Assembly: GCA_003232385.1 (NCBI GenBank)
Contig: QIJE01000006.1
Location: forward strand, 71,336-119,049
Origin: a bacterium
GTDB taxonomy: Bacteria > SZUA-79 > Acidulodesulfobacterales > Acidulodesulfobacteraceae
Length of the DNA stretch: 47,714 nucleotides
Direction of reading: 5' to 3'
Position 1 is the stretch's first letter. Every line of letters begins with the position of its first letter. The translations under genes were made by a program, and so were the position numbers. Under the pieces are notes generated by a model. That model searched no databases, was not told the origin of the DNA, and was given only the letters and a program-made list of their open reading frames with translations. Of the stretch, positions 3 to 27,768 are shown piece after piece.

Positions 3-704
3 ATTTATATGGGGGAAGCTCTTCTTTCCATACCTCGATATCGCATAAATTTCAATAACTTGATAGAACAGATGATTTTTATCGGTATGGATTCGTTTTA
101 CGTAGTAGGATTGACAGGTTTTTTTACCGGCATGGTTTTGTCGCTTCAGGCGTATTATGCGGCTAAAGTTGTAGGTGTTACCTACATGATAGGCCCTACA
201 GTCACGTTAGCTATGACTAGAGAGCTCGGTCCCGTTTTAACGGCCCTCATGATTACCGCAAGATGTGGTTCTTCCATGGCTTCCGAAATAGGCACGATGA
301 AAGTTACCGAGCAGATAGATGCCCTTGAAGTTATGGCGGTAGACCCATATTATTATCTTGCTGTTCCGCGTATCCTTGCCGCAATAATAATGCTTCCGAT
401 AATGGCTATCTTATGTTCTTTAATTGGCATAATCGGAGGTTATGTCGTTTACGCTTATTTTCTCGGGCTTAATCATGTTACCTATATAGAAAAAATATAT
501 CAATATATTAATCTTGGCGATATATACGGCGGTCTTTTGAAATCTGTTTTTTTTGGAGCTATACTTGCTACTATCAGCACGTTTAAAGGGTTCGAAACAA
601 CAGGCGGTGCCAAAGGTATTGGTAAATTTACTACTCAGGCTGTGGTGTTGAGTTCCATTTGTATTCTTTTGGCAGATTATTTATTTACTTCTATTCTCTT
701 TTAA
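3..704 (+). CDS. mlaE: MlaE-type ABC permease, 5' end cut by window edge
   Basis: Integral inner-membrane permease of an MCE/Mla phospholipid transporter. The reading frame is open to the left edge; an internal ATG lies at 9, but MlaE proteins usually have some 20-30 more N-terminal residues, so the true start is probably outside the window. Family hallmarks visible are a GLTGFFTGMVLSLQ-like first membrane segment, the conserved stretch around TRELGPVLTALMITAR and GSSMASEIGTMKVTEQIDAL, and four further hydrophobic segments. It is followed after about 10-15 bases by mlaF and then mlaD, the usual order of the membrane core complex. In the family, MlaE forms a dimer in the inner membrane that moves lipid between membrane and the MCE ring. 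No special regulation can be seen because the promoter is upstream. Confidence 0.93.
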   Translation: MYMGEALLSIPRYRINFNNLIEQMIFIGMDSFYVVGLTGFFTGMVLSLQAYYAAKVVGVTYMIGPTVTLAMTRELGPVLTALMITARCGSSMASEIGTMKVTEQIDALEVMAVDPYYYLAVPRILAAIIMLPIMAILCSLIGIIGGYVVYAYFLGLNHVTYIEKIYQYINLGDIYGGLLKSVFFGAILATISTFKGFETTGGAKGIGKFTTQAVVLSSICILLADYLFTSILF

Positions 705-719
705 TTATTATTTTTGACG

Positions 720-1463
720 ATGATTACATTGTATCAATTATCAAAATCTTTTAACGGTAAAAAGGTGCTTGATAATCTCAATATGAGATTCAAAGAAAGA
801 AGAATAACCGTCATTATAGGTAGAAGCGGCGGTGGGAAGAGCGTTATGCTTAAGCATATAATAGGTTTAATAAAGCCTGATTCGGGAAGAGTTCTAATAG
901 ACGGTATAGATATGAATACTCTAAAAAAAAAGGAACTTAACGAAATAAGAAAAAAGTTCGGGATGGTTTTTCAGGATGGAGCACTTTTTGATTCCCTTAG
1001 CGTATTTGAAAACGTAGCGTTTCCGCTGAGGCAGCACCTTAATCTTCCGGAGGAAGATATACGCTATAAAGTGTATTCTATTCTTAACGATGTAGGTTTA
1101 AACGGACATGAGTCGAAAATGCCCTCTGAAATTTCCGGAGGAATGAGGAAGAGAGTAGCCGTTGCGAGGGCACTAATACTTAATCCGGAGATAATGCTTT
1201 TTGATGAGCCCACTACCGGGCTTGATCCGATTATGTCTGATGTTATAAACAATTTAGTCGTATCAATGCATGATAAATTTAAATTTACCGGAATAATAAT
1301 AAGTCATGATATAAAAGGGGCTTATAAAACCGGCGATGAAATAGCGATGCTTTATAACGGAAAAATTATAGAGGTCGGAACGCCCGAAGAGTTCAAAGAT
1401 TCAAAGAACCCTATAATAAACCAGTTTGTATCCGGTAGCATGAACGGTCCTATTATACTATGA
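720..1463 (+). CDS. mlaF: MlaF-type ABC transporter ATP-binding protein
   Basis: ATPase subunit that energises the Mla/MCE lipid transporter on the cytoplasmic face. The Walker A motif GRSGGGKSV, a Q-loop (FQDG), the ABC signature ([17 protein letters not shown], in the MlaF form SGGM rather than SGGQ), Walker B ([13 protein letters not shown]) and switch His (ISHD) are all present, and the length of about 247 residues is normal. I chose the ATG at 720; a TTG at 714 in the same frame would add two residues, and neither has a clear Shine-Dalgarno sequence. The stop codon overlaps the start of mlaD by four bases (ATGA), consistent with translational coupling. Confidence 0.94.
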
Positions 1464-3037
1464 ATATTAATAAAGAAACCAAAGTAGGTATTTTCACGGT
1501 AGTTGTTTTGCTTATACTTGCTTATTTTTCCGTTAAAGTGGGAAAAATTCATATATTTAAGCCCGAGACGTATACTATTTCAGCTTATTTTAAATCGGCA
1601 AATGGAATAGGTAATGGAACTCTCGTTACTATGGCGGGGATAAAAATCGGAAGTGTTAAATATATCAGGTTAGAAAACAATTTGGCAAGGGTCTACATGA
1701 CGATACTTTCTAAATATAAGGTTTATCCCGTATATGTTGCATCTATCAAGTCTATGAATTTACTGGGGGAGAGCTATATCTCTATTTCACCCGTAAGCAG
1801 TAAGATAGGGTATCATCCGCAGAAACATCTGGATAGTGAAGTTATTAGAAGCGAAATGACCCCTCAGAACATATCTATGCTTATTATGAAATTTGCCAAA
1901 ACGGCAAATAATTTAGAGAAGGTCACCATGTCGCTAAAAAATTCTATAGGGACAAAGGCCGGAGAGAAGAATATAAGAACCATACTTTATAATATCGCTA
2001 TGCTTTCAAGAAATTTGAATAGACTTGTTTACTTGAATCAGCGAAATGTTAATATTATTATGTCTAATTTTGCTTCTATTTCAAAACATATTAACAGATT
2101 AACGATACGGAACAATGCTGCCATAACAAGAACCATACATAATTTTGATTCGATATCTTATAATCTAAAAAAAGAGATTCCGGATATTACTAAGAATATA
2201 AAAGGTCTTTCAGAAAATTTGAATTACATGGTAGCCAAAAATAAAAATAATATAAACAGCAGTTTGAATAATATCAATGCCGGTACTAAAAAATTAAACC
2301 TTACCTTAAATCAGCTATACGATATTTCTTCCAAGATAAATAACGGTCAGGGTACCATAGGGAAACTTATAAACAGAAGTTCTGTGTATGATAATTTGAA
2401 CGGTTCTTTGAAGGGTATCAACAAATTAATGGGCGGTTATAGTCAATTTAAAGTTAAAGTCAATATGGATTCGCGGTATATTATTAGAAGTAAGGAGTCT
2501 ATCTCTCAGATAAACCTTAAATTGCAGCCGTCTCCGGGACACTATTACGAGTTAGGGGTGGCATCGGTACCGATGGGTTACGGTAACACTTACGGTGAGA
2601 CCCAAACAACCACGCAAATAACCAATAGCCCCCCTTCAGGGCAATTTTATCCATCAAGCATAACTACCGATATGACACGATATACTTATTCCAGCAGCGT
2701 TAAATTTAACGCTTTAATAGCTAAAAACTTTTATAATTTTACTTTTCTTGCCGGTTTGTTATATTCTACCGGTGGGGCAGGAATTGATTACTATGTTCCG
2801 GATATGGGAAAGGACCTCAAGCTTTATGTGAGAGTGTTTGGATTAAATATGGACAATAACGGTGTTAACGAGTATGTTAATGCGGGCATATCTTATTCAT
2901 TTTATCGACATTTATTCTTAGATGCCGGATACGATGATATTTTTAACAATAGCGACAGGTCTCTTTATGTCGGCGGGGGCATTAAATTTACCGATAAGGA
3001 TCTTAAATACCTTATTGTCGGAAGTAAAATTCCTTAA
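1460..3037 (+). CDS. mlaD: MlaD, long form: MCE domain, helical rod and C-terminal beta-rich (barrel-like) region
   Basis: Periplasmic substrate-binding partner of MlaEF. One N-terminal membrane segment (about residues 8-25) is followed by one MCE domain (about 38-111, with [17 protein letters not shown] and a [11 protein letters not shown] end). A long Asn/Ser/Lys-rich helical region follows (about 130-315). The last 200 residues (about 325-525) are rich in alternating aromatic and polar residues with repeated short Gly turns, for example [14 protein letters not shown] and [10 protein letters not shown], which looks like an outer-membrane beta-barrel. At 525 residues it is far longer than E. 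coli MlaD (about 180). No mlaA, mlaB or mlaC is seen nearby, so a single protein bridging both membranes is a plausible inference. The start ATG overlaps mlaF by four bases. Confidence 0.88.
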
Positions 3038-3070
3038 TATAAAAATACAAATCCAAAATAAAATAATTAT

Positions 3071-4123
3071 ATGACATCTAAAAAATATAAGCTTACCAGT
3101 TTAACAAGTGCACATGGCTGAGGATGCAAAATAGGTCCGGAGGACCTTTCAAAGATTATAGGTAAATTACCGGTTCCGGAATGCGATAATGTTCTGGTCG
3201 GATTCGGATATAAGGATGATGCCGGCGTTTATAAAATCAGCAATGATACTTGCCTTATCCAAACCGTTGATTTTTTTACTCCGGTGGTAGATGATCCTTA
3301 TGTTTTTGGACAAATTGCCGCGGCAAATGCCCTTTCCGATGTATATGCGATGGGAGGAAAACCTATAACGGCATTGAATATTGCTTGTTTTCCTATAAAT
3401 GTCATAGAAGAAGAAGTTTTCAGCAGGATACTTCTCGGCGGATTGCACAAAATGACAGAAGCGGGCGTTGCACTTTTGGGCGGGCATTCGATAGATGATA
3501 AAGAAATAAAATACGGGCTAAGCGTTACCGGTATTTGTGATATAAATAAAATTTATTCTAATCAGGGTGCGAAGCCGGGGGATATTTTATGCTTAACTAA
3601 AAAATTAGGGACGGGATTTGTCGTAAGTGCCATATGTAAGGATTTTCTTGAGCAAGATACCCTGAATGAGGCTGAGCTTTCCATGTCTAAGCTTAACAAA
3701 TATGCTTCGGAATTGGCTGTTTCTTCGAAATTTCCAAATGCTATGACCGATATTACGGGATTTGGGCTTGCGGGTCATTTAAGCGAGATGATGATTGCAA
3801 GCGACACATGTTGTGAAATAAACTTGTCGTCCCTTCCGGTTATAAGTGGAACGATGGAACTGATAAATAAAGGCGTTAACCCTGCCGGAACTAAACGTAA
3901 TAGAGAATATTTTAGCAAATACGTATCAGTTACGGGTGGCCTTGATGAAATATTATTGCAACTCGCTTTTGGGGCCGAAACATCCGGCGGATTAATATTT
4001 GCCGTACCGGAGGTCAAGATGAACGATTTGAAAAACTTATTTGGCAAGGAGGAGGAGCCGCTTTACGAAATAGGAAGGGTTTTAGATAAAAATACGAATA
4101 GTATTTATATAAAATTTTTATGA
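3071..4123 (+). CDS. selD: Selenide, water dikinase SelD with selenocysteine at position 17 (in-frame TGA)
   Basis: Makes selenophosphate from selenide and ATP, the selenium donor for selenocysteine (and 2-selenouridine tRNA). Reading from the ATG at 3071 through the TGA at 3119-3121 gives 350 residues, the normal SelD length. The N-terminus then reads LTSLTSAHG-U-GCKIG, which lines up with E. coli SelD around Cys17-Gly-Cys-Lys20; the TGA sits exactly at residue 17 and the catalytic Lys falls at residue 20. Without recoding, the first usable start is the ATG at 3284 and the protein would lose its active-site loop. Downstream family motifs are normal: DFFTPVVDDPYVFGQIAAAN, SDVYAMGG, GGHSI and ITGFGLAGH. 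No clear Shine-Dalgarno sequence precedes 3071. It lies 33 bases after mlaD and 30 before an ASKHA ATPase gene. Confidence 0.93.
3119..3150 (+). promoter_or_regulatory. Selenocysteine TGA codon and SECIS-like hairpin of selD
   Basis: The recoded TGA is at 3119-3121. Beginning 11 bases after it is a perfect 6-bp hairpin: AGGTCC at 3133-3138, loop GGA, GGACCT at 3142-3147. Bacterial SECIS elements recognised by SelB are short hairpins immediately 3' of the UGA, with the loop roughly 15-30 nt away and G/U-rich; position and size fit. The sequence is fully inside coding sequence, as in bacterial selenoprotein genes. The hairpin is seen directly; its SelB binding is inferred. Confidence 0.75.
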
Positions 4124-4153: not shown

Positions 4154-5404
4154 ATGAATTATTCGTTAGGGGTTGATCTCGGCACGACGACTGTGGCAGC
4201 GTTTATAATGGATGAAGGAGGCCGATCTTATCCCATTAAAACCACCTTTAATTTTCAATATCCCGAATTTGGATTAGATTCGGTAAAACGAATCCAGAAT
4301 GGTTTGGATGAAAATTCCGTTAAAAAACTGCAGCGAAAAGCCATATCAACGATAAACGCCTTGATAGACGAAAATAAAAACGAGATAGAATTTGATTACG
4401 ACGATATAAAGGAGATAGTCATAGCAGGCAATACTGTTATGGAGATGGCATTATGCGGTTATCCTTTAGTTTCTCTATCAAAGCCCCCGTATAGATCTCA
4501 GTCTGATATTTTTTTTTATAATAATACTAGTTATTTTAAAGATTTTCATCTGCTGAATAGTAAATTATTCATCTTTCCGGTTCTAGACGGTTTTGTCGGA
4601 GGGGATACCGTTGCATCAATTTATTATTTGGATATGTTAAAAAGAGATAAACCGGTTTTTTTCGCAGACTTCGGAACTAATGTAGAAATAGTTATAGGTT
4701 ATAAAAATAAAATATACACTACTTCGGCTCCTGCAGGGCCGACTTTTGAGGGCGGTAATATAAAGTTTGGAGTTACGGCAAAGAGTGGTGCAATCTCGGA
4801 AGTCACACTTAAAGGCGGTATTTTTAAAGTTAAAACTATAGAAAATTCTATTCCTATCGGAATCTGCGGAAGCGGAATAATGAGTCTAATATATGAGCTT
4901 TTAAAAGGGGGCGTTGTAGATAAAAACGGTAGAATTTTGCCGCCCGAGCTAATAGATTCGGAAAGTTTTTCCGTTGTGGAAAGAGGGCGCAATGAAAACG
5001 AGGTTGTTTTATATTTTGACGGTAAAAACAATATAAGATTTTTTCAAGAAGACATGAGGCAGTTTCAGTTTGCAAAGTCGGCTATCAAATCTGCGTCGGA
5101 AATACTTATGAAAAAATTTAAAATTTCAAACAATGATGATTTTGACGTATACATTTCAGGAACGTTCGGTAGTCATATCAAGCCCGATGTTATAGACCTG
5201 ATCGATATCTTTCCTTTTAATGGAAAAAAAATAAATTTTATTGACGACTCAGTCCTTCTCGGTTGCCAAAAATATATAACATCGGAATCACTTGAAAGGG
5301 ATAGTGAGTTAAGAAATATAATCGATATTTCAAAAAATTTTCCTCTTTCAGGGAGTAAACTTTTTGAGAGCCGTTTTATTGAGAATATATCTTTTCAGCT
5401 TTAA
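4154..5404 (+). CDS. ASKHA-domain ATPase of the RACo / DUF4445 type, without ferredoxin domain
   Basis: Resembles the C-terminal ATPase half of RACo/RamA-type proteins, which use ATP to drive reductive reactivation of corrinoid (cobalamin) iron-sulfur or methyltransferase proteins. Visible markers are a phosphate-binding start (GVDLGTTTVAAFIMD), AGNTVMEMAL, DGFVGGDTVASI, DFGTNVEIVIG, APAGPTFEGGNIKFG, GICGSGIMSLIYELLKGGVVD and SGTFGSHIKPD, in the order found in that family. Full RACo is about 630 residues with an N-terminal 2Fe-2S ferredoxin domain; this 416-residue protein starts directly at the ASKHA domain and has no Cys cluster at its N-terminus, so its redox partner must be separate or its job differs. 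It follows selD closely (30 bases) and overlaps the end of rlmN by 29 bases tail to tail. The exact target is unknown. Confidence 0.75.
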   Translation: MNYSLGVDLGTTTVAAFIMDEGGRSYPIKTTFNFQYPEFGLDSVKRIQNGLDENSVKKLQRKAISTINALIDENKNEIEFDYDDIKEIVIAGNTVMEMALCGYPLVSLSKPPYRSQSDIFFYNNTSYFKDFHLLNSKLFIFPVLDGFVGGDTVASIYYLDMLKRDKPVFFADFGTNVEIVIGYKNKIYTTSAPAGPTFEGGNIKFGVTAKSGAISEVTLKGGIFKVKTIENSIPIGICGSGIMSLIYELLKGGVVDKNGRILPPELIDSESFSVVERGRNENEVVLYFDGKNNIRFFQEDMRQFQFAKSAIKSASEILMKKFKISNNDDFDVYISGTFGSHIKPDVIDLIDIFPFNGKKINFIDDSVLLGCQKYITSESLERDSELRNIIDISKNFPLSGSKLFESRFIENISFQL

Positions 5405-9375: not shown

Positions 9376-10701
9376 ATGAATAAAGAATATGCTTTTTTTT
9401 GGGGTTGCACTATACAAGCTAAGTTTCCATTTATGGAAAAAGCAACGAGATTAGTGCTTGACAAATTAAAGGTAAAATATAGGGATATTGATTCATTCAC
9501 TTGCTGTCCGGAAAAATCGTTGGTGAAGAATATAGACGAAACGCTTTTTTATTTAACCGGAATAAGGAATATTGCGCTTGCCGAAAATGAAAATATCGAT
9601 ATAATGTCGGTATGCACAGGCTGCTATTCAAATCTGAAACAAATAAAGACAAAGGTCATTTCCAATCCTGCGTATCAAAAAAAGCTAAATCAAACATTAG
9701 AGAGAATTGGCCTAAATTTTTCCGGCAAATCCTCGATATATCATTTTATAGAATTTCTTCATGATGATATCGGACTTGATAAAATCAAGGCAAACGTTAA
9801 ATATCCCCTCAAGAATTTAAATATCGCAATACACTACGGATGTCATTTAGTTAGACCTTCTCATGCAATAAATTTTGATTCTCCTTTTGAACCGCGCAAA
9901 TATGACAATGTTTTAAAAGCGCTCGGTGCCACCGTAGTAAATTATAAAGATAAAATGATGTGCTGCGGACAGGCATTGGATAGAGTTGATGAACATAACA
10001 AGGCATTGGTCATGACTGAAATAAAGTTGAATTCTATTAACGAGAGTAATGCTGATGCAATATCTACGGTTTGCCCTTCATGTTTTACGCAGTTCGATAC
10101 GAATCAGTTTATGCTCTTAAAAAAAGGGCTTGATCATCAAATTCCGGTTATTACGCTGGAAGAACTCATGTGTTTGGCCTTCGGTATAGACGGTGCGGAA
10201 GAACTCGTATCTCAGCATAAAATAAAAGCAGGGAAGTTTATGAAAAAGTTCAAAGGCATTAAGGCTATAGCTGATTATTCTGTTGTTTTGGACAGAGATT
10301 CTTTAGTCAGATGTTATAACTGTTGTGCATGCAAGAATGATTGTCCGATGAGTTTGTCATTTGAATCCTACGATCCTCCTTTGGTTATAAAAATGATTTT
10401 AGATAACGACGTCGAAAGGGCGATGTCTTCAAAGATCGTATGGGAATGTTTGGAATGTCATACATGTTCTGAGTTATGCCCTCAAAATTATAGCTGGGAG
10501 ACTGTCCTTACGACACTTAAAAATCTTGCAATAAAAAACGATATCGGTCCGCATACGGTTAAGAAGGCAGGAGAGCTTTTTTTCAAAACTTTAAAATTCG
10601 GTGCCCCTCAGGAGAGAATGCGTAAAAAATTAGGTCTTCCACCTATAAAAAAAGGTGTTGATACTGAATTTAAAAGAATAATAGATGAAAATATTCTATA
10701 A
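9376..10701 (+). CDS. Fused heterodisulfide reductase-type subunits B and C (HdrB-HdrC)
   Basis: Iron-sulfur electron-transfer protein. The N-terminal part (residues about 5-285) holds two complete CCG domains, each with C...CC...CxxC: first around GCTIQAK, TCCPEK and CTGCYSN, second around GCHLVRP, CCGQAL and CPSCF. In HdrB these hold non-cubane 4Fe-4S clusters that reduce disulfides. The C-terminal part (about 310-400) is HdrC-like, with two CxxCxxCxxxCP motifs (CYNCCACKNDCP and CLECHTCSELCP). The two subunits are separate proteins in methanogens. No hdrA, flavoprotein or hydrogenase gene is adjacent, so the electron partner and substrate are unknown; a sulfur-compound or thiol disulfide role is possible. 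Confidence 0.87.
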   Translation: MNKEYAFFWGCTIQAKFPFMEKATRLVLDKLKVKYRDIDSFTCCPEKSLVKNIDETLFYLTGIRNIALAENENIDIMSVCTGCYSNLKQIKTKVISNPAYQKKLNQTLERIGLNFSGKSSIYHFIEFLHDDIGLDKIKANVKYPLKNLNIAIHYGCHLVRPSHAINFDSPFEPRKYDNVLKALGATVVNYKDKMMCCGQALDRVDEHNKALVMTEIKLNSINESNADAISTVCPSCFTQFDTNQFMLLKKGLDHQIPVITLEELMCLAFGIDGAEELVSQHKIKAGKFMKKFKGIKAIADYSVVLDRDSLVRCYNCCACKNDCPMSLSFESYDPPLVIKMILDNDVERAMSSKIVWECLECHTCSELCPQNYSWETVLTTLKNLAIKNDIGPHTVKKAGELFFKTLKFGAPQERMRKKLGLPPIKKGVDTEFKRIIDENIL

Positions 10702-11153: not shown

Positions 11154-12287
11154 GTGCTTAAGTTAAAAAATGAGTTTAGTCTTGAAAGGGATATTTCGGG
11201 ATGCGGATTGTGCGGCATCATAAATTCAAAAAAAATTAAAACGAACGGTAGCGATATTAAAAAGGCCATATCTATAGAGCATGACAGAGGGAACGGACTA
11301 GGGGGAGGATTTGCCGTTTACGGAAATTATCCCGATTATGCAGAATTATATGCATTTCATATAATGTACGATAATTTATCGGCAAAAAAAGATGTGGAAG
11401 AATATCTTAAGAATAACTTTATTATCGAAAAAGAAGAACCCATACCGACTTTTAAGACTTCTAAAATTTACGATCACCCATATTTGCATCGTTATTTTAT
11501 AAAACCCAAATCCGATAGGCAAGATAAACTGTTTCATGAACTCGGTGATGATGATTTTGTCGTTAACAGCGTTATGCTGATTAACCAAAATTATAACGGG
11601 GCATATGTTTTTTCAAGCGGGAAAAATATGGGTGCCTTTAAGGGGGTCGGTTATCCGGAAGATATTGCGGATTTTTATAAGTTAGAAGAGATAGAGGGTT
11701 ATATGTGGACGGCTCACAATCGTTTTCCTACAAATACTCCGGGATGGTGGGGTGGGGCACACCCCTTTACATTGCTGGATTGGTCGGTTGTGCATAATGG
11801 AGAGATATCTTCTTACGGTATAAACAAAAGATATCTTGAAATGTATAAATATAACCTCTCGCTCAAGACTGACACTGAGGTTATTACGTATATTCTCGAT
11901 CTTCTTATAAGAAAGCATGGCCTTCCGATCCGGTTAGCTGTTACGGTATTGGCCTCTCCTTTCTATCATAATATTGATAAAATGGATAAAAATAAAAAAG
12001 AACTATTAATTGCTTTGCGACAGATTTACGGCAGCGCACTTTTGAACGGTCCGTTTGCTATCGTATTTAGTTATTCTAACGGTATGATTGCGATGAATGA
12101 TAGGATAAAGCTCAGGCCTCTTATCGCCGCTACTATGGGTCATTTTACCTATGTGGCATCAGAGGAGGCTGCAATAAGAGCAGTGTGTCCTTCTCCTGAT
12201 TCGGTATGGTCCCCTAAAGCTGGAGAGCCGGTTATGGTTGAATTCGAAGAACCAATGTTGCAAAAGGGAGGGTTGGTTAGTTTATGA
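11154..12287 (+). CDS. gltB1: Glutamate synthase, archaeal-type subunit 1 (class II glutamine amidotransferase)
   Basis: Releases ammonia from glutamine for the synthase reaction. An N-terminal nucleophile Cys is at residue 17 in SGCGLCGIIN, matching the CGVFGI start of mature class II amidotransferases; a 16-residue leader would be removed. Further markers are TAHNRFPTNTPG, HPFTLLDWSVVHNGEIS and the stretch with TDTEVITYIL. The start is the GTG at 11154 behind AGAGAGG; the overlapping ATG at 11152 is in another frame and stops within a few codons. The stop overlaps the gltB2 start by four bases. This corresponds to the first domain of the large GltB chain in bacteria, encoded here as a separate protein as in many archaea. 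Confidence 0.93.
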   Translation: MLKLKNEFSLERDISGCGLCGIINSKKIKTNGSDIKKAISIEHDRGNGLGGGFAVYGNYPDYAELYAFHIMYDNLSAKKDVEEYLKNNFIIEKEEPIPTFKTSKIYDHPYLHRYFIKPKSDRQDKLFHELGDDDFVVNSVMLINQNYNGAYVFSSGKNMGAFKGVGYPEDIADFYKLEEIEGYMWTAHNRFPTNTPGWWGGAHPFTLLDWSVVHNGEISSYGINKRYLEMYKYNLSLKTDTEVITYILDLLIRKHGLPIRLAVTVLASPFYHNIDKMDKNKKELLIALRQIYGSALLNGPFAIVFSYSNGMIAMNDRIKLRPLIAATMGHFTYVASEEAAIRAVCPSPDSVWSPKAGEPVMVEFEEPMLQKGGLVSL

Positions 12288-13804
12288 CAAAATCTTCATT
12301 CTCCAATATACAATCTGAATATTTGGCCCTGGTAGACCACAATAAATGCGTTAGATGTAAGAGGTGTATTCAAAATTGCGGATGGGGGGTATACAGTTTT
12401 GGCGGTGATAGAATCATCTCCGATCATAATAAGTGCGTAGCTTGCGGAAGATGCTACACATATTGTCCGGAGGGAGCCATTTCGATTGTTAAAAATCCTA
12501 CTGTTGTTCGAGAAAATGCAAACTGGAAAGACGGTCTCATGAAGGATATATGGAGGCAATCGGAAACCGGCGGTATTCTTATCTCGGGGATGGGAACGAC
12601 TTTTAAATATAAAAAATATTTTGACCATGTGCTTTTAGATGCTTGCCAGGTCACAAATCCTTCTATAGATCCATTAAGAGAGCCTATGGAGCTAAGGACT
12701 TATCTAGGCAAGAAACCTTCTAAATTAGATATTGAGTTTGACAAAAATGATGAACCGATTTTAAAAACTAAAATGCCTCCGCAGATAGAATTGCAGACCC
12801 CGTTTGTTTTTGGCGCGATGTCTTACGGCTCTATCTCACTAAATGCGCAAAAAGCTATGGCTTTGGCTGCTAGGGCATTAGGTATAATTATGAATACGGG
12901 CGAAGGAGGATTGCACGATGATTTAGTCCCATTTGGTAAGAATATTATAGTTCAAGTGGCCTCCGGAAGATTTGGCGTACATAGGGATTATTTAAACAGT
13001 GGAATTGCCGTGGAAATAAAAATAGGACAGGGTGCGAAGCCGGGGATAGGAGGTCATTTGCCCGGTGAAAAAATAGGGGTGGATATATCGAAAACGCGAA
13101 TGATCCCCGTCGGAACCGATGCTATTTCACCTGCTCCCCATCATGACATATATTCCATAGAAGATTTACGGCAACTTATTTTTGCCATAAAAGAAGCTAC
13201 TGATTATGAAAAACCAATTTCCGTTAAAGTAGCAGCTGTGCACAATATAGCGGCTATAGTAAGCGGAATTGTTAGAGCGGGAGCAGATATTGTTTATATT
13301 GATGGTTATAGTGGCGGAACCGGGGCGGCACCTAACATAATAAAGAATCATGTGGGAATACCCATTGAACTTGCTCTTGCTCAAGTAGATGAAAGACTTA
13401 GAAATGAAGGGATTAGAAATGAGGCGTCGATAATTGCGGCAGGGAGTATCAGATCTAGTGCCGATGCGATAAAGGCGATAGCTCTGGGAGCAGACGCTGT
13501 CGCAATAGGAACGGCTGCTCTTGTAGTAATGGGATGCCATGTTTGCGGTAAGTGTAATACCGGAAATTGCAGCTGGGGGATCACGACGCAGAGGCCGGAG
13601 CTTGTCAGAAGGCTTGATCCTGAAGTTTATGGGGAGAAATTATACAATCTTATTTCGGCATGGAGTCATGAGATTCAAGAGGTTTTGGGTGCTATGGGGG
13701 TGAATTCTATTGAGAGCCTGAGGGGATCCAGAGAAAGACTAAGGGGTGTTGAACTAACCGATACAGAGTTGAAAGTTCTTGGAATTAAACATGCAGGGTT
13801 TTAA
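12284..13804 (+). CDS. gltB2: Glutamate synthase, archaeal-type subunit 2 (FMN domain with N-terminal 2x[4Fe-4S])
   Basis: The catalytic core that turns 2-oxoglutarate plus ammonia into glutamate. Two ferredoxin-type clusters come first: Cys22/25/28/32 and Cys51/54/57/61. The FMN-binding TIM barrel follows, with FGAMSYGSISLNAQKAMA, NTGEGGLHDD, GQGAKPGIGGHLPGEKI, GYSGGTGAAP and GADAVAIGTAALVVMGC, and a Cys cluster (CHVCGKCNTGNC) for the 3Fe-4S site. The length of 506 residues is normal for this type. No NAD(P)H-dependent GltD gene is nearby, so electrons may come from ferredoxin through the N-terminal clusters; that is inference. The overlap with gltB1 suggests strict co-translation. Confidence 0.94.
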   Translation: MTKSSFSNIQSEYLALVDHNKCVRCKRCIQNCGWGVYSFGGDRIISDHNKCVACGRCYTYCPEGAISIVKNPTVVRENANWKDGLMKDIWRQSETGGILISGMGTTFKYKKYFDHVLLDACQVTNPSIDPLREPMELRTYLGKKPSKLDIEFDKNDEPILKTKMPPQIELQTPFVFGAMSYGSISLNAQKAMALAARALGIIMNTGEGGLHDDLVPFGKNIIVQVASGRFGVHRDYLNSGIAVEIKIGQGAKPGIGGHLPGEKIGVDISKTRMIPVGTDAISPAPHHDIYSIEDLRQLIFAIKEATDYEKPISVKVAAVHNIAAIVSGIVRAGADIVYIDGYSGGTGAAPNIIKNHVGIPIELALAQVDERLRNEGIRNEASIIAAGSIRSSADAIKAIALGADAVAIGTAALVVMGCHVCGKCNTGNCSWGITTQRPELVRRLDPEVYGEKLYNLISAWSHEIQEVLGAMGVNSIESLRGSRERLRGVELTDTELKVLGIKHAGF

Positions 13805-13824
13805 TCTTGATATATATAATAATG

Positions 13825-13839
13825 AATGCAACTTGCATT
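13825..13839. repeat. Hyphenated palindrome AATGCAA-C-TTGCATT in the gltB2-gltB3 spacer
   Basis: Perfect 7-base arms separated by one base, 21 bases after the gltB2 stop and 34 before the gltB3 start. The single-base centre suits a dimeric protein-binding site better than a hairpin, and no T-run follows, so it is not an ordinary terminator. It may be an operator or an RNA-processing point within the operon. The palindrome is seen; function is a guess. Confidence 0.4.
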
Positions 13840-13872
13840 AAATTAAAATATAGAGGGAGGATTAAGTAGCAT

Positions 13873-14616
13873 ATGATAACGATAGACGCTGTCGGTATGC
13901 ATTATAGGGAACTCAACGTACTAATAAAAGAAGGGATAAAAAGGGGTATAAAGAAATTTTTTCTTGAAAACGTTAATGGACAGTATTATATCGGCGATGG
14001 AATTAAAGGGGATGATGTTGTTATTACCATAAACGGCGTTCCCGGCAATGATCTGGGGGCTTTTATGGATGGACCGACGTTAATTGTTAATAACAATGTT
14101 CAAGATAATATAGGTAATACTATGAATGCCGGTAAAATATTAGTTAAGGGTGATGCCGGAGATGTTGTAGGTTACGGTATGAGAGGGGGAAGAATTTATA
14201 TCTTGGGTGATGCCGGATATAGAATAGGAATACACATGAAGGGATATGACGAACAATTTCCCGTTATAATTATTGGAGGGAAGGTTGGAAGCTTTTTTGC
14301 AGAGTACATGGCAGGAGGGATTATAGTTCTATTAGGGCTTAACGATAACAACTCAGATGAATTTTACGGCGAATACTTTGCTACCGGCATGCATGGGGGT
14401 ACAATATATCTTAGAAAAAAGATAGATTTTTCTAAATACTCAAAGGAAGTTGAACTCTATGAAGCCGACGAAGACGATATGATTTTTTTAAAAAAATATT
14501 TAATTGAGTATTCTGATAGTTTTAATATTCCCCGAGGACAAATTATGGGTAAGCCTTTTTATAAAATTGTACCTTCGAGCGCAAGGCCGTATGCTCATCT
14601 CTATACTTCGGCATAA
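13873..14616 (+). CDS. gltB3: Glutamate synthase, archaeal-type subunit 3 (GXGXG domain)
   Basis: Corresponds to the C-terminal GXGXG beta-helix domain of bacterial GltB, which supports the ammonia tunnel between the amidotransferase and synthase sites. The repeated Gly pattern is obvious: GNDLGAFMDGPTLIVNNNVQ, GNTMNAGKILVKGDAGD, GYGMRGGRIYILGDAGYRIG and GTIYLRKKI. GGGAGG at 13855-13860 provides a good ribosome-binding site for the ATG at 13873. The 68-base gap to gltB2 is wider than the gltB1-gltB2 overlap and contains a palindrome, so its dose may be set separately. The length of 247 residues is typical. Confidence 0.93.
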   Translation: MITIDAVGMHYRELNVLIKEGIKRGIKKFFLENVNGQYYIGDGIKGDDVVITINGVPGNDLGAFMDGPTLIVNNNVQDNIGNTMNAGKILVKGDAGDVVGYGMRGGRIYILGDAGYRIGIHMKGYDEQFPVIIIGGKVGSFFAEYMAGGIIVLLGLNDNNSDEFYGEYFATGMHGGTIYLRKKIDFSKYSKEVELYEADEDDMIFLKKYLIEYSDSFNIPRGQIMGKPFYKIVPSSARPYAHLYTSA

Positions 14617-26121: not shown

Positions 26122-27768
26122 TTGTTTAATATAATGAAAAATAAGAGTTTTTTTATTTTTATTTTTATATTCCTATCTTCGATTTTTATATTTAAAAAAA
26201 ATGCTTTTGCGTATATGAATGTCGGAATAATGCCTTATAAAATTATTTCCACGCATAACAAAAAATATTCATATATTGCACGCGGTATCCCATTGCTTCT
26301 ATCTTCAAGTTTAGCCTCTAGCGATATTCGAATAGTGAGATATTCCGATCTCGTTTCATACATCAAAGGCAATAATATAAATTTTTCGTCGAAAGATTTT
26401 TTAAAATTATCTAAACATTTTAAAATCAATTATTTAATTTTTGGAAGGATTATCAAGATAGGGGATACTTTTGTTCTGCAATCTAACATATTTAGCGTCG
26501 TTAGAGATAAAATAATTTATAGAAATAGCATTCAAGCGCTTGGAAGTAAATTTATCGTCAATGATGTAAATAGGCTCTCTAATATTTTAAAGAAAAAAAT
26601 TGTTTCCATGCATCCGCCGAAGATTTCTTTGCTTAAAAATAAGACGACGGGCAGTGTGCCTGAGGCTATTGGCGGCAGCATGTTTATAAAGCAGTTTGCT
26701 AAGGGTGACAATGGACTCGTTAGGACAGCAGTTAAGGAATATATTATACAAGCTATAAGCACAGGTAGATTTTTATCTAAGGGGATTCAGACCGTTATAG
26801 CAACGAGACATAGAATTATTTTATATAATTTATCCATTAGCGGAAAACTGACCAAATTGGCGCAGCGCGAATTATCTCCAAGGAGTAATGTTATATATGT
26901 CGGATTTTATAGAATTTCCAAAGATCATCGGGCATTAATTATTACCAAGGCGAAACTTGGTGTAATAATATCTTATATGTTGGTTTATAAGAATGATAGT
27001 CTTGTAAAATTAACTAAAAACTATAATCTATTTTTAAGAGTTATGAATTTACCCGGTTTAGGAAATGTTATTGTAGGCCAAAGACCCATTCCAGTAAGTC
27101 CGTCAGGCAGATATTTTAATGATTACGTTATAGGACAGAATAATTATCCTATAGGTCAATTTGGCGGTAAAACTTATGTATATCGGTTTAATAATAGTAC
27201 GAGTACATTAATAAAAACACGGCAACTTGCTTTTTACAATAATATAACGCTCTACGGAACGGTTTACGGAGACATTAAGGGAAACGGTAAAAATTATCTT
27301 TTGGCATTATCTAATTCAGGAAACTTAATGATTATAGACAGCAAAGGAAAAACGATTTATACCGGTCAGAAGACGTACGGAGGGTCTCCTTTACAGGTTA
27401 GCGTCTCGTCTTTTGGAGGAGATTTGAGTTCAACATATGCCGATGGGTTGATATATAATATCCCTGCGCAAATTGACGGACTATATCATAACGGTAAATT
27501 AGATATTATTGTTTTAAAGAATTATAAGCAGGCAGCTTCTCTGCATAATCTTAATTATTACATTAAAAACTCTATATTTAGTCTCACTTGGAATAAAGTG
27601 GGGTTTTATCCTCGCTGGGAGATAAAGCCGATAACCGGTTACAGCGCCGGATTTTCTATTTTTAAGGAAGGCAATGACCTTTATCTATCTGACGGAATAG
27701 TCGAAACCCCCGGCTCTATGTTTACTAAACCCAAAAGTTACATAGCAATTTATAAGATTGAAAATTAG
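26122..27768 (+). CDS. Exported protein with TolB/CsgG-like N-terminal domain and a propeller-like C-terminal region
   Basis: Function unknown. An N-terminal signal sequence (about residues 5-31) is followed by a domain (about 32-150) with the pattern of periplasmic TolB-N/CsgG/FlgT-like modules: VGIMPYK, a small helical part, then INYLIFGRIIKIGDTFVLQS. From about 170 to 548 there are repeated beta motifs ending in Asp/Gly turns (ATRHRIILYNLSISGKLTKL, YGDIKGNGKNYLLALSNSG, IDGLYHNGKLDIIVLKNYK) that look like a VCBS/FG-GAP-type beta-propeller. The start may be the TTG at 26122, seven bases after GGAG, or the ATG at 26134. Likely periplasmic or surface-linked; no operon partner is visible. Confidence 0.6.
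   Translation: MFNIMKNKSFFIFIFIFLSSIFIFKKNAFAYMNVGIMPYKIISTHNKKYSYIARGIPLLLSSSLASSDIRIVRYSDLVSYIKGNNINFSSKDFLKLSKHFKINYLIFGRIIKIGDTFVLQSNIFSVVRDKIIYRNSIQALGSKFIVNDVNRLSNILKKKIVSMHPPKISLLKNKTTGSVPEAIGGSMFIKQFAKGDNGLVRTAVKEYIIQAISTGRFLSKGIQTVIATRHRIILYNLSISGKLTKLAQRELSPRSNVIYVGFYRISKDHRALIITKAKLGVIISYMLVYKNDSLVKLTKNYNLFLRVMNLPGLGNVIVGQRPIPVSPSGRYFNDYVIGQNNYPIGQFGGKTYVYRFNNSTSTLIKTRQLAFYNNITLYGTVYGDIKGNGKNYLLALSNSGNLMIIDSKGKTIYTGQKTYGGSPLQVSVSSFGGDLSSTYADGLIYNIPAQIDGLYHNGKLDIIVLKNYKQAASLHNLNYYIKNSIFSLTWNKVGFYPRWEIKPITGYSAGFSIFKEGNDLYLSDGIVETPGSMFTKPKSYIAIYKIEN

Follow-up and report, generated by a model that had tools for sequence, protein, structure and literature searches.

A selD gene with an in-frame UGA codon and a candidate TusA-family selenoprotein in a lineage of Acidulodesulfobacteraceae

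The selenophosphate synthetase gene (selD) in a 47,714-nucleotide stretch of DNA assigned to the family Acidulodesulfobacteraceae carries a TGA codon in frame near its start. This stretch, hereafter the window (C2:71336-119049), belongs to a draft genome of 1.54 Mb in 40 contigs, estimated to be 95.5% complete. The locus raises the question of whether the codon is read as selenocysteine (Sec) and, if so, which other proteins of the organism would draw on the Sec system. An earlier note, made from the letters of the window alone, had proposed that SelD is itself a selenoprotein and that further selenoproteins of the genome may be truncated in annotation. The features discussed below are collected in Table 1.

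Table 1. Coordinates of selD, its neighbours and the genes of the predicted Sec system (window positions unless marked as genome)
Feature	Position	Strand	Evidence or remark
mlaE-mlaF-mlaD lipid-transport genes, upstream of selD	9..3037	+	context
selD, 350-residue selenophosphate synthetase with one UGA read through (predicted)	3071..4123	+	TIGR00476 and family homology
UGA codon for selenocysteine 17 (predicted)	3119..3121	+	aligned with E. coli SelD catalytic Cys17
SECIS hairpin (predicted), stem AGGUCC/GGACCU	3133..3147	+	fold, synonymous entropy, Sec versus Cys control
RACo-type ASKHA protein (corrinoid reactivation), gene directly after selD	4154..5404	+	PF14574, PF17651
selA	genome C2:69091-70482		569 bits; ~3.9 kb upstream of selD, just beyond the window
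selB	genome C17:11325-13262		318 bits
tRNA-Sec (selC)	genome C10:30893-30984		64 bits (cut-off 47); anticodon UCA
TusA-family gene with in-frame TGA	genome C7:20124-20384	-	88 residues, LDIRGLCUGPPVWAVV

The selD reading frame and its in-frame UGA

The forward-strand frame at 3071-4120 contains TGA 3119-3121 as its sole internal stop and is closed by a second TGA at 4121-4123. When the internal codon is read through, the frame gives the full-length protein that had been claimed, and the product passes curated SelD models along its entire length (362.9 bits against TIGR00476, cut-off 125; 320.7 bits against PRK00943, cut-off 299). In a phmmer alignment, residue 17 falls in the catalytic Cys column of E. 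coli SelD (3u0o) and Aquifex SelD (2yye), in agreement with the placement in the earlier note, and is directly followed by G-C-K, U17-G-C-K20 satisfying the catalytic Cys/Sec-x-x-Lys pattern. The standard ORF list starts selD at GTG 3284 and assigns it 279 aa, exactly the conventional call that had been described; this form lacks the catalytic loop, and the anticipated loss of the active site is thus borne out. A true stop at the TGA, with the shorter protein from GTG 3284 as the actual product, is highly improbable: a standard ORF is present there, but the 71 residues that precede it, the catalytic loop and the start Met among them, proved to be conserved in all relatives, a point that the earlier note had left to be checked, synonymous constraint peaks just downstream of the TGA, and the 279-aa form would be without its catalytic loop. 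No clear Shine-Dalgarno sequence is apparent at 3040-3070, upstream of the conserved selD ATG, and several relatives are alike in this respect.

Conservation across the family carries much of the argument. Exactly one in-frame TGA, together with homology from residue 1, was found in SelD from 30/30 family genomes, so the codon is not there by chance; the motif HGUGCK(I/L)GPEDLS is present in every one of these proteins. Relatives with Cys codons and decayed selD frames were looked for among the family genomes and not found. All the relatives are draft assemblies, as is the source genome, and an assembly error or a pseudogene could in principle produce such a codon; yet the same TGA recurs in 30 separately assembled genomes, the SelD of the other 29 being 69-79% identical to the protein described here, and purifying selection is evident on either side of it, which makes this explanation the least credible of those weighed.

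Reassignment of TGA to a standard amino acid such as Trp or Gly throughout the lineage would also account for a TGA codon that is passed in frame. We rejected it on stop usage: TGA still terminates 12 of the 39 ORFs in the window, selD itself among them, so the genetic code has not been reassigned. Moreover, no TGA in the window other than 3119-3121 breaks a homology-supported frame, homologues have Cys at position 17, and the full Sec machinery is present; reassignment therefore has a negligible chance of being correct. That machinery, the absence of which the earlier note regarded as evidence against Sec, comprises selA, selB and selC, all three of which were found in the genome (Table 1). 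The proposed decoding of UGA as Sec in this organism is supported by all the genomic evidence.

Among known systems, the closest in kind are the Sec-SelD proteins (TIGR00476) of the Clostridioides difficile and Aquifex type, with which the protein described here shares the fold family and Sec at the catalytic position followed by x-x-K, as well as a SECIS element directly downstream and SelA, SelB and selC in the genome. Sec-SelD is a well-known type, as had been acknowledged from the start, and one survey (PMC4561486) put the share of Sec forms among prokaryotic SelD at 19%. Unlike most sampled Sec-SelD proteins, which have GUAAK or GUASK, those of this family have HGUGCK, resembling GCGCK of E. 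coli; the GGA loop and the spacing of 17 nt in the hairpin also set them apart, all these differences being at the family level only. The nearest solved full-length bacterial Cys form, E. coli SelD (3u0o; 226 bits), has the same catalytic loop but differs in having Cys17 in place of Sec17, with no need for a SECIS element.

Judged on sequence and on the properties of its family, from which Sec insertion and enzyme activity are taken, the gene is almost certainly a functional selD that encodes a selenoprotein. UGA 3119 would be decoded by the ribosome as Sec, with the hairpin at 3133-3147 positioning SelB loaded with Sec-tRNA-Sec such that Sec is placed at residue 17, the selenium-handling residue of SelD. 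SelD would then produce selenophosphate from selenide and ATP, and SelA would use selenophosphate for Sec-tRNA; SelD would therefore help to make the amino acid that it contains. For selD, the gain is in annotation, given that the gene is otherwise shortened in this lineage to 279 aa with no active site.

A predicted SECIS hairpin in selD

The predicted hairpin has 6 bp, a 3-nt GGA loop and a distance of 17 nt from UGA to the loop, with a window MFE of -8.2 kcal/mol, and satisfies the published constraints on bacterial SECIS elements, which were taken from PMC13188914. The fold energy of the single sequence is not exceptional compared with shuffles (z -0.78), and comparative tests were therefore applied. 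Across the 30 selD genes, codons 22-25 (GGT CCG GAG GAC) have a total codon entropy of 0.21 bits, the lowest in selD, versus 1.93 bits for the next run of four invariant SelD residues that does not overlap them; the sole change in these codons, GAC to GAT, preserves a G-U pair. In a wider SelD sample, in which a hairpin had to conform to the model with an energy of -5 kcal/mol or lower, such a hairpin was detected in 56 of 60 Sec-SelD genes (93%) versus 2 of 15 Cys-SelD genes (13%), the rates in shuffled sequences being about 9% and 19%, respectively. All 19 family members in this sample (19/19) have the hairpin at spacing 17.

Other uses of selenium and a candidate TusA-family selenoprotein

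The search for other selenoproteins covered named families and loci in the incomplete source genome. In this genome, no in-frame TGA was detected in three molybdopterin oxidoreductases, in the HdrA and FlpD proteins, in CCG Fe-S proteins or in peroxiredoxins. A fused protein of the HdrB-HdrC type, with CCG domains followed by a 4Fe-4S dicluster domain, is encoded in the window at 9376-10701, also with no in-frame TGA. A scan for other TGA-interrupted genes based on codon usage returned few hits, all lacking support, and was insensitive, having missed SelD. The proposal that further selenoproteins are truncated in annotation thus stood in part: a TusA-family gene is indeed lost to annotation, whereas the families tested for formate dehydrogenase and HdrA, both named as possible cases, showed no in-frame TGA in this genome.

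Two destinations of selenium were considered as reasons for retaining Sec and rejected. A Sec-containing formate dehydrogenase alpha subunit (motif ARIUHAPT) was found in only one of eight genomes (G003, C1:713392-715056), where it has its own SECIS-like hairpin at spacing 19, and selenouridine synthase (TIGR03167) had no match in any of the eight genomes searched. Zhang et al. (2006; PMC1794560) argued that in the absence of formate dehydrogenase the Sec trait is maintained by Sec-SelD, possibly in order to sustain selenouridine. Among the seven genomes with no match to Sec formate dehydrogenase, selenouridine synthase was found in none (0/7) and the TusA-family gene with an in-frame TGA in all (7/7); what maintains Sec is therefore a testable question in this lineage.

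The TusA-family gene (hereafter Sec-TusA) was recovered by a PF01206 search, which returned one TusA-family match with an in-frame TGA in each of the eight genomes (8/8). The protein from the source genome scores 40.7 bits against PF01206 (cut-off 28.6) and falls under the NCBIfam TusA and YedF cut-offs. Its Sec falls in the column of the E. coli TusA active-site Cys, with another Cys immediately before it. Compared with the TusA sulfurtransferases (PF01206; E. coli 1dcj, 3lvj), the protein is alike in passing PF01206 and in placing Sec on the active-site Cys column, and unlike E. coli TusA in having Sec for Cys, the extra preceding Cys, and GPP for PxP. A profile search of 291 genomes identified Sec-TusA with the TGA in 27 of the 30 family genomes; outside the family, 12 of 261 genomes had matches, none with TGA. 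Genes for NusB and RibH adjoin all 27 copies (27/27) and the RNase PH gene (rph) adjoins 25 of the 27. No ORF of at least 60 aa is called on the coding strand at this locus.

As in selD, the UGA codon is followed by a hairpin, and in an identical register: it has 7 bp and a GGUC loop at a spacing of 17 nt from UGA. This GGUC-loop hairpin was examined directly in 25 Sec-TusA genes (22 distinct sequences). Over the 22 distinct sequences, 96.1% of cells were paired, compared with 29-51% in slid controls; compensatory changes, with both sides changed, occur in 3 of the 7 pairs, and the covariation score was reached by none of 500 shuffles (0/500). Among the invariant Sec-TusA residues, full fixation of a degenerate codon is seen only for the valine whose codon forms the loop, and no hairpin of this kind was found in four Cys-TusA genes of the same genomes. 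RNAalifold applied to 8 Sec-TusA genes chose a different hairpin, which lacks covariation and has some broken pairs; we set it aside in favor of the strongly supported GGUC-loop hairpin. MFE folding of single Sec-TusA sequences often favors a competing hairpin, and the claim on structure therefore rests on covariation.

From its sequence, we infer that Sec-TusA would relay sulfur (or selenium) in the manner of TusA, by means of its Cys-Sec pair. A TusA based on selenium is of chemical interest in acidophiles that cycle sulfur, because it is the active-site Cys of TusA that bears the sulfur, in the form of a persulfide. A TusA/SirA family was looked for and not found in the selenoprotein catalogues PMC9312934 and PMC13188914 (the latter a 2026 catalogue of 119 families and subfamilies); RefSeq may possibly annotate Sec-TusA. 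TusA/SirA is likewise absent among the new families reported from deep-Sep (PMC12013277), and NCBIfam has no model for Sec-TusA. The genome paper on Ca. Acidulodesulfobacterales (PMC6776010) mentions sirA-like transcripts, and selenium proteins are absent from its text.

The lineage thus contains other genes with the arrangement of UGA plus hairpin, namely Sec-TusA and the Sec formate dehydrogenase gene of G003. The opposite possibility, that SelD is the sole selenoprotein here and the Sec system would work solely for its own upkeep, has a precedent in Helicobacter mustelae, for which Sec-SelD was reported as the only selenoprotein (PMC4607533), and agrees with the finding of neither Sec formate dehydrogenase nor selenouridine synthase in the genome and with HdrA, FlpD, CCG and peroxiredoxin families that have no TGA. 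It is nevertheless unlikely, because this genome and 26 relatives share Sec-TusA, which has a TGA in the catalytic Cys position and a SECIS hairpin supported by covariation. We consider it probable that this lineage (~30 genomes, probably Ca. Acidulodesulfobacterales) has a selenoprotein family so far uncatalogued, namely a small sulfur carrier of the TusA type whose active site is a vicinal Cys-Sec pair and whose gene adjoins nusB and escapes gene callers, and that together with Sec-SelD this carrier maintains the Sec system where neither Sec formate dehydrogenase nor selenouridine synthase was found. Selenophosphate seems to serve Sec alone in the lineage, since the eight genomes yielded no selenouridine synthase, and the TusA-family selenoprotein would be the second user. 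Following up selD in this way exposed a conserved candidate selenoprotein that standard annotation drops entirely.

Genomic surroundings of selD

Of 19 named relatives, 17 retain the order HNH-mlaE-mlaF-mlaD-selD-RACo, and in the remaining 2 the contig starts within mlaD; RlmN and CbiC are both retained in 13 of the 19. The RACo-type ASKHA gene stays adjacent to selD across the family; the matches in its product are confined to the central and C-terminal domains of RACo. Elsewhere in the window, glutamate synthase is split at 11154-14616 into a glutaminase domain (11154), a central Glu_synthase domain with ferredoxin (12284) and a GXGXG domain (13873), and an ORF of 548 aa with no Pfam match (26122-27768) adjoins the rRNA operon.
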